A stretch of DNA of 64,000 bases from Pyramidobacter porci (lineage in GTDB: Bacteria > Synergistota > Synergistia > Synergistales > Dethiosulfovibrionaceae). This document shows, piece by piece, positions 3,653-34,280 of the stretch (position 1 is the first letter of the stretch; each line of letters starts with the position of its first letter). A program made the position numbers and the translations under genes. Location of the stretch: assembly GCF_009695745.1 (NCBI RefSeq), contig NZ_VUNH01000003.1:186001-250000 (forward strand), in the 5' to 3' direction. The notes under the pieces are model-generated. The model was given only the letters and a program-made list of their open reading frames with translations. It was not told the DNA's origin and did no database searches.

Positions 3653-4183
3653 ATGAATAATTTACGAGTCAGAAAAATCGCGTTTACGGCCGTTCTGGCC
3701 GCGTTCGCCGTGGTGGGATCGTTTATTTCTTTTCCCGTGTTCGGGGCCAAGTGCGCGCCGGCGCAGCATCTGGCCAACATTCTCGGCGCCGTCTTCCTCG
3801 GCCCTCTATGGAACGTGGCGGCGGCGTTCGTCGCCAGCCTGATCCGCAACCTCATCGGCGCCGGCACGCCGCTTGCGTTCCCCGGGAGCATGTGCGGTGC
3901 GCTGCTTGCCGGCGTCATGTACCGCGCGGTCCGGCGGCTCCCCGCCGCCTGGCTGGGGGAGATCGCCGGCACGGGGATTATCGGCGGGATGCTGTCCTAT
4001 CCCGTGGCGCGTTTTGTACTGGGAAACGAGAAAGCCGCGCTGCTGACCTTCGTCGTGCCGTTTCTGATCAGCTCTGCCGGCGGCGCGGCGATCGGCGCGG
4101 TGATCACCGTCGCCATGGAAAAATTAGGGCTGCTCGAAGCTGAGCGTTTTTTCTCGGGACAACGGCATGGCGACGCTCGCTGA
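3653..4183 (+). CDS. thiW: ThiW, predicted thiazole ECF-transporter S component
   Basis: A 176-residue membrane protein of the ThiW family, the substrate-binding S component of an energy-coupling-factor importer, predicted to take up hydroxyethylthiazole. The sequence is a series of hydrophobic helices (about residues 9-31, 43-65, 80-93, 100-120 and 128-155). Small-residue and Pro/Phe motifs such as GAGTPLAFPGSMCGALLAG are typical of the family. Start: ATG preceded by AAGGAGG. It lies under the TPP riboswitch and overlaps thiM by 17 bases, so uptake and phosphorylation of the thiazole are coupled. The shared ECF energizing module is not in this window. Confidence 0.9.
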   Translation: MNNLRVRKIAFTAVLAAFAVVGSFISFPVFGAKCAPAQHLANILGAVFLGPLWNVAAAFVASLIRNLIGAGTPLAFPGSMCGALLAGVMYRAVRRLPAAWLGEIAGTGIIGGMLSYPVARFVLGNEKAALLTFVVPFLISSAGGAAIGAVITVAMEKLGLLEAERFFSGQRHGDAR

Positions 4184-4970
4184 ACTGTGGGCGGTGTGGG
4201 AGAAGATTTCCCGCCGCCGTCCTCTCGTCCACTGCATCACGAACCCGGTGACCGTGAACGACTGTGCCAATGTCCTGCTGGCTGCCGGTGCGCGTCCCTT
4301 CATGGCCGCCCATCCCGACGAAGTGGAAGAAGTGCAGCTCCATGCCGACGCACTGGTGATCAACCTGGGGGCGATTTCGCAGCTGGATTCCATCGGAAAA
4401 GCGGCGCGGCGGGCCGTTGCGTGCGGGCATCCGATCATCGTCGATCCGGTCGGCGTTTCCGCTTCGTCGCTCCGTCGCCGCAGCTGCATTGAGCTGCTGG
4501 AAGAATTTCACGTGGCCTGCGTGCGCGGCAACGGCGCGGAGATTCGCGCCCTGCTCAGCGATACGGGAACGGCGGCGGGCGTCGACGCGGACGAGGAGAC
4601 GGCGGCCGCCGAAGTCGCGTCTGCTCTGGCGCGGCGGCATGGCTGCACGGTCGTTTCCTCCGGGGCTGTCGATGCGGTGACCGACGGACGTCGTGCGTTC
4701 GGCGTCAGTAACGGCGACGCGATGATGACCCGCGTCACGGGCATGGGCTGTATGCTGTCGTCGCTGCTTGGCGCCGCTTATGCGGTCGAAAGTTCTCCGC
4801 TCGCGGCCGCCGCCGTCTGCGCCGCCGTGGAGCTGAGCGGCGAGCTGGCCGCCGCCGGAACGCGCTCGGCGCGCCGCGGTCCGGCGCATTTCCGCGACCT
4901 GTTCGTCGACACTCTTTACAGCCTCGATGAGGCTCAATTCATGGGAGGAGCAAAATATTCCGAGGGCTGA
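4167..4970 (+). CDS. thiM: hydroxyethylthiazole kinase
   Basis: Phosphorylates 4-methyl-5-(2-hydroxyethyl)thiazole with ATP for thiamin salvage. It is 267 residues, the usual length for this ribokinase-fold family. Visible blocks are the substrate region PLVHCITNPVTVNDCAN (about residues 19-35), DPVGVSASSLRR (about 91-102), and the anion-hole/catalytic region TRVTGMGCMLSS (about 190-201) with the conserved GxGC. It overlaps the end of thiW and is under the same TPP riboswitch. No thiE or thiD gene follows, so the phosphorylated product must join a pathway encoded elsewhere. Confidence 0.95.
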   Translation: MATLAELWAVWEKISRRRPLVHCITNPVTVNDCANVLLAAGARPFMAAHPDEVEEVQLHADALVINLGAISQLDSIGKAARRAVACGHPIIVDPVGVSASSLRRRSCIELLEEFHVACVRGNGAEIRALLSDTGTAAGVDADEETAAAEVASALARRHGCTVVSSGAVDAVTDGRRAFGVSNGDAMMTRVTGMGCMLSSLLGAAYAVESSPLAAAAVCAAVELSGELAAAGTRSARRGPAHFRDLFVDTLYSLDEAQFMGGAKYSEG

Positions 4971-20275: not shown

Positions 20276-20357
20276 TGGTGCCTAAGGAGGGACTCGAACC
20301 CTCATGTGGTCGCCCACGGGGGATTTTGAGTCCTCTGCGTCTACCGATTCCGCCACT
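20276..20357 (-). repeat. left attachment repeat: truncated tRNA-Leu copy (attL)
   Basis: Identical to the tRNA at 28814-28900 except for one base and the loss of the first seven nucleotides. The 5' acceptor strand is replaced by unrelated sequence that cannot pair with CTTAGGC. The single substitution puts an A-C mismatch in the anticodon stem. It is therefore a non-functional tRNA remnant left by integration, although it still looks tRNA-like to a scanner. Confidence 0.9.
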
Positions 20358-20446
20358 GCAAGGGTTCACGCCGATAAAAGACGTCCAATGCCGGGGGACT
20401 TTCTTTGGGGCATTGCTCCATGGCGTAAAAAAGGGAAGCGTTTTTC

Positions 20447-21396
20447 ATGCCGGAGAACACGGTTCATCTTGTATTTTCTCGGAAGACGGCGGTTCAGGAC
20501 AGCATCACGGATTTCATCATCCTTAAGCAGGCATCGGGAAGTGCCTGCGCGACTCTTGAGGATTATCAATGGACGCTGAATCACTTCTTTAGCCACTACC
20601 CGCAGGCATGGTCAGGCCCGTCGGCCATGCGTGAGGCTTTCCTTTCGTGGATCAACAAGCGCATTGCCCCGGCGACGTACAACCAGAGATTGGTTTACGT
20701 CCACGCCTTCTGGCGCTGGTGTGTTGAAGAGGGGATACAGCCGCCGGAACCCGATCCGTTCAGGGGCCTGAAACGCCGCAAAGACCGCGGGCATTTTCGC
20801 GACATCGACGCCGCGAAGGTGAAAGAGCTGCTGACGCTTCCAGACCGTTCCACATGGGCGGGGCTGCGCGACTACGCCCTGATCCTCTTTACCCTCGACA
20901 CCGCCGCGCGTCCCGGCGAGCGCTTCAACTTTTGCCGGAGCATTTCAACATCTTTTCCCTCGCGGTCACGATTCCGCACAAGACGGCCAGGACCCGCGAG
21001 GAAAGAATCGTCCCGTTCTCGCCGACTGCCGCGGCAGCCCTGCGCCAGCTGCTCAGAGCGAGGCCGCCGGAATGGGGGAGCGACACGCCGGTTTTCTGCA
21101 ATGAAAGCGGGCAAAGACTGAGCGTAGATTCATGGAGACAGCGTCTCAAGAAATACTGCTTAAACGACGGGACGACGTTCAGACCCTACGACCTGAGGCA
21201 CGCCGCCTGCACGCTCCACCTCAGAGCCGGCATGAGCGGCGAAGTCCTTCAGCGCCTCATGGGGCATCACGGGCCGCAGATGACTCAGCGCTACATCCAC
21301 CTGACCACCGACGACCTGAGAAAAGAGCAGGCGCTCTCTTCGCCCGTGGAGAGATTGGTTCCCGCGAGGAAAAGAGCGCTCAGGAAGATCAAATGA
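20447..21396 (+). pseudogene. int: tyrosine-recombinase integrase, frameshifted
   Basis: The N-terminal core-binding domain and the first catalytic arginine (TAARPGE) read from the ATG at 20447. The rest of the catalytic domain continues in the next frame: PHKTARTREERIVPF, then YDLRHAACTLHLRAG (His/Arg), then LMGHHGPQMTQRYIH (His/Tyr). The switch is needed at about 20918-20921: adding one G after GAG would restore ...PGEALQLLPEH. Without it the first frame runs to 21121 as nonsense. It lies 90 bases inside attL and is surely the element's own integrase. A sequencing error cannot be excluded. Confidence 0.85.
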
Positions 21397-22136: not shown

Positions 22137-22373
22137 ATGCCGTTTAACTATAAACCGCTTTTAAAACTGCTTATCGACAGAGACATGACAAGAGAGGAAC
22201 TAAGAAAAACTGTAAAAGCAGGGCCGACCAGCTTTGCCCGTATCGGCAAAAATGAAAATGTTTCCATGGATTTGCTCGACCGCATCTGTTCCGCCCTTCG
22301 CGCGCCGATCCAGAACGTGATCGAGCACGAGCCGGAAACCGGCCGCGAGGAAGGAACGCGGGCCGATGATTAG
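22137..22373 (+). CDS. XRE-family helix-turn-helix regulator (Cro/CI type)
   Basis: A 78-residue protein almost entirely made of one HTH_26-like Cro/CI domain (FNYKPLLKLLIDRDMTREEL, then FARIGKNENVSMDLLDRICSALR). Its last codons overlap the start of the fic gene by 8 bases, so the two are translationally coupled. The position upstream of fic, with dyads across its promoter, suggests autorepression and possibly an antitoxin-like role. The recognition helix departs from the usual sequence: TSFARIG stands where many relatives have xTIAKMG. The start has AAAGGATGTGAG ahead. Confidence 0.85.
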   Translation: MPFNYKPLLKLLIDRDMTREELRKTVKAGPTSFARIGKNENVSMDLLDRICSALRAPIQNVIEHEPETGREEGTRADD

Positions 22374-23091
22374 CGATTCCCGCCTCGCGGAGCTGAAAGC
22401 CAGGCTCGACGCCTGCCGGCCTTTGACGTCCGGAGAGCTGGAACGCCTTCGGGAACAGTTCACGATCGAGTACACCTACAACTCCAACGCCATCGAGGGC
22501 AACACGCTTACGCTCAGGGAAACGGCGCTTGTACTGGAAGGGATCACCATCGGCGAGAAGCCGCTGAAAGACCATCTGGAAGCCATCGGCCACCGCGACG
22601 CCTTCGCTTGCGTCGAGCGGCTCGTCTCGGAAAAAGAACCGTTGACGGAGTGGCGCATCCGGGAAATCCATTCCCTCGTGCTCATGGACAGGCCGCAAGA
22701 CAAAGGGCAGTATCGGAAAGTTCCCGTCGTCATTTCCGGGGCTTTCCACACGCCGACGGAGCCGCTGCTGATCCATGAGGAAATGGCCGCCCTGCTGAAA
22801 GACTTCGCCGCCACGGACAAGAACGCAGTCGAGGCGGCATCATTGTTCCATCTCCGTTTCGAGGGCATCCACCCCTTCATCGACGGCAACGGGCGCACGG
22901 GTCGGCTGCTGCTGAACTTCATGCTCATGCAGGCGGGCTTTCCGCCCATCGACGTGAAATACAGCGACCGCCGCCGCTATTACGCCGCCTTCGATTCCTA
23001 CTACAGAGACGGCGATCCCGCGCCGATGACCGGTCTGGTCGCGGAGTGCCTCGAGGCCCGTTTGCTGGAGTATTTGAAGATATTGGATTGA
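22366..23091 (+). CDS. Fic-domain protein (class II-type AMPylator)
   Basis: A 241-residue Fic protein. The catalytic motif HPFIDGNGRTGR (about residues 168-179) is intact, with the catalytic histidine and the nucleotide-binding loop. An inhibitory motif of the (S/T)xxxE(G/N) type is visible N-terminally in NSNAIEGN (about residues 39-46), as in class II Fic proteins that carry their own inhibitory helix. Fic enzymes usually transfer AMP to hydroxyl groups of target proteins; the target here is unknown. It is coupled to the XRE gene and encoded in an integrated element, so a regulatory, stabilising or defence role is possible but unproven. Confidence 0.9.
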   Translation: MISDSRLAELKARLDACRPLTSGELERLREQFTIEYTYNSNAIEGNTLTLRETALVLEGITIGEKPLKDHLEAIGHRDAFACVERLVSEKEPLTEWRIREIHSLVLMDRPQDKGQYRKVPVVISGAFHTPTEPLLIHEEMAALLKDFAATDKNAVEAASLFHLRFEGIHPFIDGNGRTGRLLLNFMLMQAGFPPIDVKYSDRRRYYAAFDSYYRDGDPAPMTGLVAECLEARLLEYLKILD

Positions 23092-24544: not shown

Positions 24545-24967
24545 TTATTCTGCCTGTCCTTTTTCTTGGCATGGTTCGTCCGGCCAGGACTTACACGCTT
24601 CCGTTCCATCGAGGATCGAGCCGATCACGACCGCCCATGCCTGAACCTGATTGGCCAGCGTCACGGGCCGCCCTTCCGTCATAATGGCCACACGTTCCCG
24701 GTATTCGTCGATCATCTCCGCCCGGTCTTCCGGTGAATACGTCCGCAGGAAGACGCTCATGATTTCGTCGGTTGAATGTTCCTTGTAGGCTTCGATGATT
24801 TCCGCCTTGTGCCGCTTCAGGTACGCTATCCCGTCGGGGGCAAGGGGCTTGAACATGGTCTTTGCCGTCAGGCCGTCCTTGCCGTCGGGGTATGCCGCCA
24901 CGCCGTGAAGCATGGCGATCGGGATCACGTGCAAGCCGTTCCTGGACATTTCGCCCTGCGTGCTCAT
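24545..24967 (-). CDS. hypothetical protein downstream of the primase-helicase
   Basis: A 140-residue soluble protein. Start ATG with AGGAGGTCACGAT ahead; it overlaps the end of the primase-helicase gene by 4 bases (ATGA type). Internal features are a DGIAYLKRHKAEIIEAYKEH helix and an acidic YSPEDRAEMIDEYRERV stretch. No family was recognised. Tight coupling to the primase suggests a replication accessory role, but there is no motif evidence. Confidence 0.65.
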   Translation of the reverse strand: MSTQGEMSRNGLHVIPIAMLHGVAAYPDGKDGLTAKTMFKPLAPDGIAYLKRHKAEIIEAYKEHSTDEIMSVFLRTYSPEDRAEMIDEYRERVAIMTEGRPVTLANQVQAWAVVIGSILDGTEACKSWPDEPCQEKGQAE

Positions 24968-27222
24968 ATCGTGACCTCCTGATTAGCAGGAATATAGCCT
25001 TCAGGACATTCATAAGAAGCATTGCCTCGAAGAGAAAAACCCTCATCGGGGGAATCGTCGCGGATCTCGCCCGTTTCTTCGTACTTGCTTAAACAACCAG
25101 GAGTGTCTGTTACGCCTGTTACGCTGTTACGTTTTTCGCCTAAACCATTGGTATCACTGCTTCGGATAGGCGTAACAACAGGCGTAACAGAAGCGTAACA
25201 ACCCCGTTCTTGCCCAACCGTAACAGGCGTAACAGGCGTAACAGGCGTAACACCCGTAACAGGCGTAACAGAAAAGAGAGAGGGATTATTATTTATAGGG
25301 GGATCTTCTTTTTCTTCGTGGCACGGGACTGCTTCTTTTGCGAGGTAATACCTGCCGTTGCTGAACCGATGGAGCTGCCCCGCATCTTTAAGGCGCTTAA
25401 CGTACATCCGGACGTTTTGCTGAGAAATTCCCGCCGCTTCCGCGATCTGCTTGGGCGACATCGGCGCGCCGCTTTCCTTCAGAGCGTCGAAGATGGCCCG
25501 TGCCGTGCCGTTTTCCTTCTCGCGGCGCTCTTTGTAGATCTCCTCCGGCGTGAAGAGACGCCAGCCCGCGGGCTTCGTCCAACGGATGGGAATGTCGTCG
25601 GTACAGTCCAGATCTCGCCCCGTCCGCTCGATTATTGCCGTTTCGTTCTGCCCTTCGCGCTTCAGGGTGAGGATCGCATCCGCCGCGCTCGGTAGCCCCA
25701 TGGAACCGGACAGCCCTTCCAGCATCTCGCCGCTTGCCGCGCTGCCTTTTTTCAGGTGGTGGACGAGAAGGATCGGCGTGTCCGTCGCATCGGCCAGAGC
25801 CTTCAGCGGCCCCACAGCCTTATAGTCGGCTTCGTAGGCGTTCAGACTTTTGTCCGTGCCCGCGGGCTTCACTTTGTTCCAGACGTCGATAACTACGAGC
25901 GAAGGGCTATTTTCAACGACCCATTCCAGCAGTTGCTTAAGCCCTCCGGCGTCGAGGCGTGGGAAGGTCGTCGTGAAGCTCATGACAGAGGGGACGCCAC
26001 CCATAGGGTAGAGCAGTTGGAGCCGCTCTTTCAACCGTGCCTGAGTGTCTTCCAGGGCCGCATAGAGTACAGCCCCCTGCGTCGTCTTCATGCCAAGGAA
26101 GGGCTTTCCAGCCGCGACCGCCGCCCCCATTTGCAAGCAAAGCCAACTCTTGCCCTTCTTGGCAATCGAGGCGAGCACGGTCAGCCCCGAAGGGACAAGC
26201 CCCTCGACCGCCCACCTCTCATCCTCAAAGCGCATGGCCATCAACTCGGACGTAGTAAAGAACTTCACTTTTGGAGTGGAGCAGGCCGAAGCCTGCATAT
26301 CGCGCAGCATCCGCGACAGCTTCAGGCGCTTCTCAAACTCCGTGCGGGCGGCCTCGAAGCCCTTGGCGAGAACAACGTCGTTCCAGTCAGCATTGTTCTC
26401 CCCCTTGGGAATAGCCTTCAAGGCGTCGGGAATGGCGGGGCGCAGGACGTCATTCTCATGCCCCCGCCCGCACTTTTTCGCCTCGCCCAGCCGTACCTCG
26501 TTATAAGCATTCTCTCCGGCTTCACCCGCATCCGCGGCGATGACGATCTCCCTGCCGGGGAACCGCGCATGAAACGCCGCCGCCACAACAGGAACGTTCC
26601 CCGCTCCGAAGCAACAGATCACGCGTGCAGAGTCGCTCACGAAGCGCTTTACCGTTGCCGCTGTGGCCATGCCCTCGCAGAAGACGATCGGCGCGTCTTT
26701 CCCGGAGCACGTTCCGGCTTCCCAGTACCCGGCTTCCTTGACGCCAAGGTCGCGCTTGCCCCATTTGCCGTCGGTCTTGAAACAGTCGATCAGTTCTACG
26801 CCGACAAGCTGACCTGTCTTCGCGTCATATACGGGAACGACCAGCTGCCCGCGGCGAGGGATCTTCTGGTACGGCTCCGGCAAAGCGGGGCCGCTAAGAG
26901 AAAGTCTGCGCAGATTGAGGCCCGTTGCATCCACCTGCTTGGCCTTCAGGTACTCATGGGCTGGTACTTCGTCTTCCGTCGCCATCTCCCACACGGCACG
27001 GGCCGCCTCGACCTTTTTCCTCTCCGCCGCTGCGGCCTTGGTGTCCTGCTCTTTCCTCGAGGAAGAAGTTTCACCGCCCGCATATTCCGGCGCGGGAACG
27101 CCCAGACGGTCGGCTAGCTCCGTCAGCGTGCCGCTCTCGCCCGTTGCGAAATCGTTCCAGCACCCCTTTTCTAGGTTGACTGAGAAGGAAGGATTATGGT
27201 CTTCCCGCAGCGGCGAGCACAT
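24964..27222 (-). CDS. primase-helicase-type replication protein (Toprim + RecA-like ATPase + winged helix)
   Basis: 752 residues from the first available ATG. CSPLREDHNPSFSVN and WNDFATGESG (residues 2-31) resemble a CHC2-type primase N-terminus; IVFCEGMATAATVKRFV and VIAADAGEAG fit a Toprim centre. A RepA/AAA_25-like ATPase follows, with Walker A-like ASIAKKGKSWL, Walker B LVVIDVW and VHHLKKGS. A winged helix (MSPKQIAEAAGISQQNVRMYVKRL) and a VTP-repeat tail end the protein. It is the probable replication initiator of the element. Codons upstream, in frame back to about 27306, still read as primase sequence (INAAWFEEHVEPRVEKL) but offer no normal start, so the 5' end may be frameshifted. Confidence 0.8.
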   Translation of the reverse strand: MCSPLREDHNPSFSVNLEKGCWNDFATGESGTLTELADRLGVPAPEYAGGETSSSRKEQDTKAAAAERKKVEAARAVWEMATEDEVPAHEYLKAKQVDATGLNLRRLSLSGPALPEPYQKIPRRGQLVVPVYDAKTGQLVGVELIDCFKTDGKWGKRDLGVKEAGYWEAGTCSGKDAPIVFCEGMATAATVKRFVSDSARVICCFGAGNVPVVAAAFHARFPGREIVIAADAGEAGENAYNEVRLGEAKKCGRGHENDVLRPAIPDALKAIPKGENNADWNDVVLAKGFEAARTEFEKRLKLSRMLRDMQASACSTPKVKFFTTSELMAMRFEDERWAVEGLVPSGLTVLASIAKKGKSWLCLQMGAAVAAGKPFLGMKTTQGAVLYAALEDTQARLKERLQLLYPMGGVPSVMSFTTTFPRLDAGGLKQLLEWVVENSPSLVVIDVWNKVKPAGTDKSLNAYEADYKAVGPLKALADATDTPILLVHHLKKGSAASGEMLEGLSGSMGLPSAADAILTLKREGQNETAIIERTGRDLDCTDDIPIRWTKPAGWRLFTPEEIYKERREKENGTARAIFDALKESGAPMSPKQIAEAAGISQQNVRMYVKRLKDAGQLHRFSNGRYYLAKEAVPCHEEKEDPPINNNPSLFSVTPVTGVTPVTPVTPVTVGQERGCYASVTPVVTPIRSSDTNGLGEKRNSVTGVTDTPGCLSKYEETGEIRDDSPDEGFSLRGNASYECPEGYIPANQEVTI
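25108..25270. repeat. iteron-like repeat field, candidate replication origin inside the primase gene
   Basis: About twelve copies of the 9-mer TGTTACGCC or close variants. Three run on the plus strand (25108, 25117, 25125). Nine run in the opposite orientation as GGCGTAACA (25169, 25181, 25192, then 25217-25270 as six tandem copies of exactly 9-bp period). A 37-bp spacer separates the two sets. Inverted iteron sets flanking a spacer resemble the origins of phage satellites and iteron plasmids. The same DNA encodes a Val-Thr-Pro/Gly tail of the protein. Confidence 0.6.
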
Positions 27223-27311: not shown

Positions 27312-27566
27312 CTAGTCATCGCCCGCCGCCTCCTTCCTCGCGCCGATCAGCATATACTTGGCCAGCTTCCAGTCCTCGTGTTTCACGGTCAGGATTGGCC
27401 AGCCCGCCTTCCGCAGTTCGCAGATTCGCGCGGCCAGCTCGTATACCTTGCCGCAGGAGAAGACATGCTCGCGGTCAAACACTTCGCCTTGGAGCAGTGT
27501 GGCCAGCACGATCCGGCGTTGCGTGTTCTGCATCTTGATGTTCCCTCTGTCTTTCTGCGCCGTCAT
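27312..27566 (-). CDS. small winged-helix DNA-binding protein
   Basis: An 84-residue protein with the pattern of phage winged-helix proteins: QRRIVLATLLQGEVFDREHV, then KVYELAARICELRKAGWPILT. The second segment is the recognition-helix and wing part. The start has GGAGGTG six bases ahead. It overlaps the gene before it by 4 bases, and its end touches the damaged 5' region of the primase gene. A regulatory or replication-accessory role is inferred from domain and context. Confidence 0.7.
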   Translation of the reverse strand: MTAQKDRGNIKMQNTQRRIVLATLLQGEVFDREHVFSCGKVYELAARICELRKAGWPILTVKHEDWKLAKYMLIGARKEAAGDD

Positions 27567-28813: not shown

Positions 28814-28900
28814 TGGTGCCTAAGGAGGGACTCGAACCCTCATGTGGTCGCCCACGGGGGATTTTGAGTCCCCTGCGTCTACCGATTCCGCCACTCAGGC
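28814..28900 (-). tRNA. tRNA-Leu (anticodon CAA), attR copy
   Basis: 87 nt with encoded CCA. Acceptor GCCTGAG pairs with CTTAGGC. Anticodon stem GGGGA/TCCCC encloses CTCAAAA, giving CAA. The long variable arm (CCGTGGGCGACCACATGAGGG region) is class II. It is the intact tRNA rebuilt at the right junction; all but its first few bases are repeated at 20276-20357. Confidence 0.96.
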
Positions 28901-32765: not shown

Positions 32766-34280
32766 ATGATGCTCAGCGAGAGCGGCGCTCTGCCGCCGTC
32801 CCGCGTGGCGCTGGCCAGGCTGCATCCTGCGCCGGAAGCGCTGCGGCTGATCTCGTTCGAAACGGCGGCGCGGCTTCGCGTCCTGCCGCTGACGATCGCT
32901 CCCGACGGCCATCTGCACGTCATGGCGGAAGAGCCGCGGAGCCTGCCCTGCGCCGATGAACTGCAGGCACTGGCCCGTCGGCGGGTGGAGCTGATCCCTT
33001 CGAGCGTTCCCGATCTTGCGGCCGAAATCCGCCGCGCCTATCAATTTTCCGGACGCATCGCCCGCCTCTCCGCGGATTACCTGCACGACGAGAGGAACGA
33101 CGAAGCGGCGTCGGAACGGCTGGACGATGCCTCGCCGGTTTCCCAGATCGTGGAGAGCATGGTCGCTCAGGCGATCGGCGAACGTGCCTCCGACATTCAC
33201 ATCGAACCGGGCGAAAAAGAGTCGCGAGTCCGTTTCCGCATCGACGGCCGGCTTGTGGACGCAGTCCGTTTTCCGTCGGGAATCCACCGGGCCGTGACGG
33301 CGCGCGTCAAGATCATGGCCGGAATGGACATCGCCGAGAGCCGTCTTCCTCAGGATGGCCGCATGTTACGGGACGTGGAAGGGCGCAAAGTGGATTTCCG
33401 CATTTCTACGCTTCCGTCCGTTCGCGGGGAGAAGGCGGTCCTGCGCATCCTTGACCGCGAACGGGCGCTGCGCGGGCTTGAAGGGTTGGGATGCGAGGCC
33501 GCAGAGCTGGCACGGATCAAGAATCTGCTGAACGTTCCCAACGGCATCGTCCTCAACACCGGCCCCACCGGCAGCGGCAAGACCACGACGCTGTACGCCA
33601 TGCTGGAACGGCTGAACCTCGCCGAGTTCAACGCCGTGACCGTGGAAGATCCCGTGGAGTACGACATTCCCGGCGTCACGCAGGTGCAGGTCAACGAGCG
33701 CAGCGGGCTGAGTTTCGCTGCGGCGCTGCGTTCCATTCTGCGCCAGGATCCCGACATCGTCATGCTGGGCGAGATCCGCGACGGCGAAACGGCGCTGCTC
33801 GCCGTCCGCGCCGCCTTGACCGGCCACGTCGTCCTGAGCACGCTGCACACCAACGATGCCGCCAGCGCGGCGCTGCGCCTGATCGACATGGGTGCGCCCG
33901 CCTTTCTCGTGGCCTCGGCGCTGCGCGGCGTGATGGCTCAGCGCTTGGTTCGCAAACTCTGCCCTCATTGCCGGCAGCCGTATGCGCTGCCGGAGCGCGA
34001 ATGCGAGCGCCTGGGGCTTCCGCACGGGAGCGTTTTTTACCGGCCCGTGGGCTGCCCGCTGTGCGACGGCCGGGGATATGCGGGACGGACGGCGATTTTC
34101 GAGGTGCTGGCTGTCGACGAAGAAATTTCCGCTCTGATCGCGCGCGAGGAAAGTGTTTCCACGCTGCGCGAGGCGGCTGTCCGCAAGGGCATGAGAACGC
34201 TGGAACGCAGCGGCATCGCCAAAGCGCTGGCCGGCGTGACGAGTTACGAAGAAGTTTTCGGCGCCATCGATGTGAGGTGA
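32766..34280 (+). CDS. pilB: type IV pilus extension ATPase (PilB/GspE family)
   Basis: A 504-residue cytoplasmic hexameric ATPase that drives pilus polymerisation. It has an N-terminal MshEN-like region, then IGERASDIHIEPGE (about 140-153), Walker A GPTGSGKTT at about residue 266, the Asp box, Walker B MLGEIRDGETA and the His box TLHTNDA. The C-terminal zinc tetracysteine CPHCRQ and CPLCDG is characteristic of PilB/GspE, not PilT. The ATG at 32766 is preferred over 32757 because AGGAG stands nine bases before it. It is followed 5 bases later by pilT. Confidence 0.93.
   Translation: MMLSESGALPPSRVALARLHPAPEALRLISFETAARLRVLPLTIAPDGHLHVMAEEPRSLPCADELQALARRRVELIPSSVPDLAAEIRRAYQFSGRIARLSADYLHDERNDEAASERLDDASPVSQIVESMVAQAIGERASDIHIEPGEKESRVRFRIDGRLVDAVRFPSGIHRAVTARVKIMAGMDIAESRLPQDGRMLRDVEGRKVDFRISTLPSVRGEKAVLRILDRERALRGLEGLGCEAAELARIKNLLNVPNGIVLNTGPTGSGKTTTLYAMLERLNLAEFNAVTVEDPVEYDIPGVTQVQVNERSGLSFAAALRSILRQDPDIVMLGEIRDGETALLAVRAALTGHVVLSTLHTNDAASAALRLIDMGAPAFLVASALRGVMAQRLVRKLCPHCRQPYALPERECERLGLPHGSVFYRPVGCPLCDGRGYAGRTAIFEVLAVDEEISALIAREESVSTLREAAVRKGMRTLERSGIAKALAGVTSYEEVFGAIDVR

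Follow-up and report, generated by a model that had tools for sequence, protein, structure and literature searches.

The 3' end of a primase-helicase gene in Pyramidobacter porci contains a dense group of short repeats in two orientations, and the question raised by this locus is whether the repeats are kept as a peptide tail or as DNA sites, and in the latter case which protein reads them and for what function. A sequence-only reading of the locus had named it a candidate replication origin. We analysed the repeats in a stretch of 64 kb (the window) together with homologous loci, and conclude that the array is very probably a replication origin to which the primase-helicase would bind through its own wHTH, depositing a RepA-type helicase there.

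All twelve copies share the 7-mer TGTTACG, which occurs three times on the + strand (at 25108, 25117 and 25125) and nine times in the inverted form CGTAACA (at 25171, 25183, 25194, 25219, 25228, 25237, 25246, 25255 and 25264). Outside the array the window has a single further TGTTACG, a stray copy at 33364. All seven exact copies of TGTTACGCC in the 64-kb window fall within 25108-25270, against an expectation of 0.28, and none of 100 shuffles reached seven copies; the tandem pattern TGTTACGNCTGTTACG is unique to the array in a search of the 2.5-Mb genome. The sequence-only reading had described about twelve copies, three in one orientation and nine in the other, around a 37-bp spacer, and this description holds, the gap between the inverted sets being 37 bp by the 9-mer used there and 39 bp between 7-mers. 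The exact 9-bp spacing reported for six of the copies was likewise found (25219-25270), with two intervening bases that vary (GG or CC). The twelve copies are all contained, in frame, in the 3' end of the 752-aa ORF 24964-27222(-). Read in the direction of the gene, the wHTH codons are followed by a linker with an AT-rich patch (25271-25300), which may be an unwinding element, set A (25219-25270(-), six TGTTACG exactly 9 bp apart), set B (25171-25200(-), three TGTTACG in the orientation of set A, 11 and 12 bp apart), a core of 39 bp (25132-25170(-)) that contains ATACCAATGGTTTA at 25141-25154, and set C (25108-25131(+), three inverted copies at spacings of 9 and 8 bp). In the relatives described below, the 20 bp preceding the first array copy have a mean AT excess of 0.12.

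The gene that carries the array (24964-27222(-)) encodes a 752-aa protein whose tail consists of translated iterons. Pfam assigns residues 180-288 to a Toprim_3 primase and residues 319-494 to an AAA_25 RepA-type helicase, and a C-terminal wHTH occupies about residues 559-628. Among solved structures, RSF1010 RepA is nearest to the helicase domain in sequence (hmmsearch E 5e-17); the matches in a fold search (Foldseek) included RSF1010 RepA, RadA and DnaB, with RSF1010 RepA among the best (TM 0.72-0.74 of target). The AlphaFold model of residues 300-640 (mean pLDDT 87) has a RecA-fold core and a canonical wHTH, in which the recognition helix corresponds to model positions 302-314, i.e., residues 601-613 (SQQNVRMYVKRLK, encoded at 25384-25422(-)); this is also where the covariation with the iteron word peaks. 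Pfam scans of the element's tested proteins gave no Rep_3 match, i.e., no Rep_3-type (WH1-WH2) initiator, and no DUF927 or D5/Primase_Cterm helicase or AEP primase domain.

The gene resides on an element of about 8.5 kb integrated at tRNA-Leu and bounded by an intact tRNA-Leu(CAA) at 28814-28900(-), the attachment site, and by a partial copy of it at 20280-20362(-). The tyrosine integrase gene (20447-21396(+)) is split by a frameshift into 20447-21121 and 20854-21396, and is either a pseudogene, a sequencing error or a frameshift product; because of this split the copy in the window may be immobile. An 84-aa HTH_39 protein (Pfam), possibly an accessory factor, is encoded just upstream of the initiator gene (27312-27566(-)). 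Further genes encode a Cro-type repressor, a Fic protein and small ORFs of unknown function; capsid, terminase (including terS) and ParA/ParM-like genes were not identified in the element. At 22137-23091(+) the Cro-type HTH gene overlaps the Fic/DOC-domain gene by a few bases, and the two are possibly a regulator/Fic pair or cargo. ORFs similar to both are present, with the order kept, in a relative, L049 (1900-2881). In the same relative (from G003) the replication module (3843-4280(-)) adjoins a terminase small subunit gene (phrog_4102, E 3e-27) near a tRNA-Ser, and no large terminase was recognised among the part of the ORFs of the 16-kb stretch that was scanned, which suggests a satellite-like element.

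Homologues were collected from Synergistota, IMG/VR contigs and plasmids, giving 158 unique loci that reach the end of the wHTH; 35 of the 188 Synergistota genomes had a match. A single-protein scan of the viral contigs gave no match, and the matches came from alignment scans. An array counted as strong if it scored 7 or more within the 450 bp beginning at the wHTH end, and stretches of equal length elsewhere in the same loci (n=744) served as controls. Strong arrays follow the wHTH in 82 of the 158 loci vs 7 of the 744 control stretches, so that about half of the homologues are without a strong array by this array-score detector. Both orientations are present in every one of the 82, and the median distance of the first copy from the end of the wHTH is 23.5 bp. 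The helicase domain is also present in a lactococcal 936-type phage and in Gordonia phage Cozz, where the stretch scanned had no comparable array. The word itself is replaced from lineage to lineage: TGTTACA, TTGCAGG, TTGAAGG, TGTCAG, TTGTCG, TGCACG, GGAACT, GTAAAC and others were found across Synergistota and viral contigs.

If the array is read by the primase-helicase, the word should change with the residues that contact it, and a comparison of homologues for such covariation had been suggested by the sequence-only reading. Among 76 representatives with less than 75% identity over the helicase domain, and with only distant pairs compared, pairwise word similarity was related to similarity in each of 298 nine-column segments of the protein. 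The recognition-helix segment was the best of the 298, with a partial rank correlation of 0.18, vs 0.09 for the best segment outside the wHTH and 0.002 for the median segment. When the areas under the curve (AUC) for sharing the same word were compared with permutations, the observed value was reached by none of 500 for the helix and by none of 150 for any segment; after correction for GC and exclusion of loci with the word in the helix codons, the correlation was 0.174 (permutations 0/2000). The effect is modest and comes from one alignment scheme, and the permutations model phylogeny only in part. Similarity over the whole domain hardly predicts the word (AUC 0.57-0.62). An earlier run with 42 representatives also placed the helix segments at the top and gave a borderline result for any segment (11 of 200 permutations), which the run with 76 resolved. 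Individual distant loci illustrate the trend: TGTTACG is shared by the window (SQQNVRMYV) and L089 (TQDKVRPYL), TGTCACC by L180, L214 and L217 (H..AKQ), and GATAACC by L157 and L245 (RNNVKQLLFKM). The comparison thus favours an origin at the DNA level, with a word that tracks the wHTH recognition helix. It also bears on the binder, for which both the primase-helicase and the separate 84-residue winged-helix protein had been put forward: the covariation argues for the primase-helicase through its C-terminal wHTH, and the small protein is the less likely binder.

Three relatives were found in the same genus. L012, the G003 copy, is 87% identical over residues 1-706 and has the word and layout of the window; L013, the G001 copy, is 78% identical and carries TGCAACG at the same place, in two inverted orientations, translated as ATPATLATDAT and VAALQALQ. 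L012 and L013 differ in 10 of 13 recognition-helix columns vs 16 of 293 others (Fisher 8e-10). Judged from these sequences, the replacement of the helix block together with the change from TGTTACG to TGCAACG is the signature to be expected of a specificity swap. The same gene and layout are found on a natural plasmid, pATHE01, where six in-frame copies of TTCACTC at a 9-bp spacing (IHSIHSIHS) are accompanied by an inverted trio; this indirectly supports autonomous replication from such an array. A plasmid of 8.3 kb, pBAL, is described as one of two native C. bescii plasmids (PMC3643907) and, from its size, is presumably pATHE01. GC skew gave no origin signal at the array in pATHE01 or in the mean of the 82 loci.

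The DNA between the inverted sets has features of its own. The gap is 35-44 bp in 23 of 64 representatives, and a subset of spacers, including that of the window (ATACCAATGGTTTA), contains a motif near ATAYCAANGGTTTA that is independent of the iteron word; the EM log-likelihood of this core motif is 68, vs at most 46.5 in 12 shuffled spacer sets. The motif may be a melting, priming or loading site. We propose that the wHTH recognition helix of the 752-aa protein reads TGTTACG, so that the repeats would be initiator-binding sites located inside the initiator's own gene. Protein bound to sets A and B, and to the inverted set C opposite, would assemble helicase rings facing each other across the core of about 38 bp, loading helicase from two sides, and the core would then be melted and primed for replication.

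Iterons of known plasmids often also have copy-number or autoregulatory roles, and the array could mainly have such a role, with the initiator repressing its own gene or pairing copies and replication starting elsewhere on the element. Binding by the initiator, as supported by the covariation, is common to this reading and to an origin. In every homologue, however, the array is at or past the 3' end of the gene, far from the promoter, and the inverted sets around a core of about 38 bp resemble PICI origins tested by cloning (PMC6092414); we therefore regard a mainly regulatory array as unlikely. It is still less probable that another protein, for instance the 84-aa HTH_39 protein, reads the array as a partition (centromere-like) or packaging site: centromere-like sites are also iterated and the HTH_39 gene adjoins the initiator gene, but it is the primase-helicase whose recognition helix covaries with the word, and the window element has no identified ParA/ParM-like or terminase gene.

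That the array of the window is also translated requires explanation. As previously noticed, both orientations yield Val-Thr, from GTT ACG one way and from GTA ACA the other way. Relatives with the same DNA layout encode repeats of Ala-Thr, Val-Asn, Ile-His-Ser, Val-Ala or Leu-Gln. Of the 82 loci, 41 have the stop codon ahead of the array, 29 behind it and 12 within it. Since the word is lineage-specific and the stop codon may fall on either side of the array or within it, the DNA is kept, not the Val-Thr peptide, in agreement with the earlier proposal that the DNA word is what is conserved; and since the position of the array is conserved relative to the wHTH while that of the stop codon varies, translation is incidental. 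With its period of 9 bp the array leaves the frame open and can therefore be translated, and the Val-Thr-Pro tail would simply be origin DNA in translation. When the window is compared with its nearest relative, synonymous sites in the array (48 of 52 codons the same) are only mildly more conserved than those elsewhere. A Val-Thr-Pro linker selected as peptide, with the DNA word a product of codon bias, is hardly credible and was rejected, for although Val-Thr results from both orientations and the period is divisible by three, relatives encode other repeats in the same DNA layout or have a stop codon ahead of the array.

Taking the replication origin as the preferred reading, we consider it rather likely that these loci form a widespread origin family, unrecognised in the open-licence literature, of AAA_25 primase-helicases with a fused wHTH and an origin at or inside the 3' end of their own gene, in which a hypervariable word is read by the helix in a partly readable code and the core of about 38 bp has a common motif (ATAYCAANGGTTTA). 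If true, the family would provide dozens of natural orthogonal initiator-origin pairs, a RepA-class helicase would be its own initiator, and the covariation of helix and iteron would lead to direct predictions on specificity swaps and element compatibility. It would point to the replication start in a large group, for the most part unannotated, that comprises small integrative elements and phage-like contigs as well as at least one natural plasmid, and it suggests that some phage genes called 'RecA-like recombinase' or 'AAA ATPase' are replication initiators. Gene 54 of Mycobacterium phage Muddy, annotated as a RecA-like DNA recombinase, encodes an AAA_25 protein, and its 3' end (L460, 3303-3625) has 11 CGGACA/TGTCCG copies in both orientations, a candidate origin in a named phage.

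Two further observations concern the word TGTTACG outside this family. Two-cluster inverted TGTTACG arrays directly follow other primase-helicase genes in L068 (8626), L073 (7947), L108 (6220) and other IMG/VR loci; these primase-helicases are of the Zn_Ribbon_Prim/Toprim or DUF5906 type, without AAA_25, which suggests convergence of unrelated initiators on both word and position. L104, L112 and L118 have long TGTTACG tracts of 9-bp period in reading frames (for example ECYECYECY in L118); these lack an inverted set and differ from the origin arrays.

Among known systems, the alpha protein of phage P4 combines a Toprim-type primase, a helicase and origin recognition in one protein. The window protein resembles it in this fusion and in having an iteron origin (the alpha protein and its origin are discussed in PMC4234260) and differs in the helicase, which in P4 alpha is of another class without AAA_25 and in the 752-aa protein is an AAA_25 domain closest to RSF1010 RepA. 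RSF1010 shares the RepA-type RecA-fold helicase domain, but it initiates with three proteins, RepA, RepB' and RepC (PMC4234260), its initiator and primase being separate polypeptides, whereas here all are fused and the helicase has its own wHTH. ORF904 of pRN1 also has its wHTH at the C-terminus, and an origin region directly 3' of its gene is required (PMC4234260); it differs in its stem-loop origin without iterons, SF3 helicase and archaeo-eukaryotic primase. In the Vibrio cholerae satellite PLE, the DNA-binding domain of RepA covaries with the origin in modular fashion, and swaps have proven the specificity; the initiator is of RepA_N type, the iterons are intergenic, semi-palindromic and about 30 bp long, and no helicase in the initiator is reported (PMC8263062). 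In SCCmec Cch2 the C-terminal domain binds short direct repeats (AAGTG) that follow closely on the cch2 gene (PMC7581432), but Cch2 has a D5-type helicase, a separate CCPol-MP primase and only three reported iterons.

The pri-rep-ori modules of SaPIs and PICIs are similar in having an initiator helicase with a C-terminal DNA-binding domain and iterons directly 3' of the gene. SaPI Rep uses its C-terminal domain to recognise iterons that directly follow the rep gene (PMC7581432), and in PICI origins, tested by cloning, two iteron sets flank an AT-rich region (PMC6092414); correspondingly, sets A and B and the inverted set C lie around the 39-bp core, and an AT excess is found around the arrays of relatives. 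Unlike SaPI Rep, with its DUF927 or D5/Primase_Cterm helicase and AEP primase, the window protein combines AAA_25 with Toprim, and unlike in SaPIs and PICIs the array often lies within the coding sequence. The element is assigned neither to the PICIs nor to P4, because its helicase is not of their defining types. A RepA/RecA-fold helicase, a Toprim primase, frequent location in the coding sequence and the breadth of specificities set these proposed origins apart from those known.
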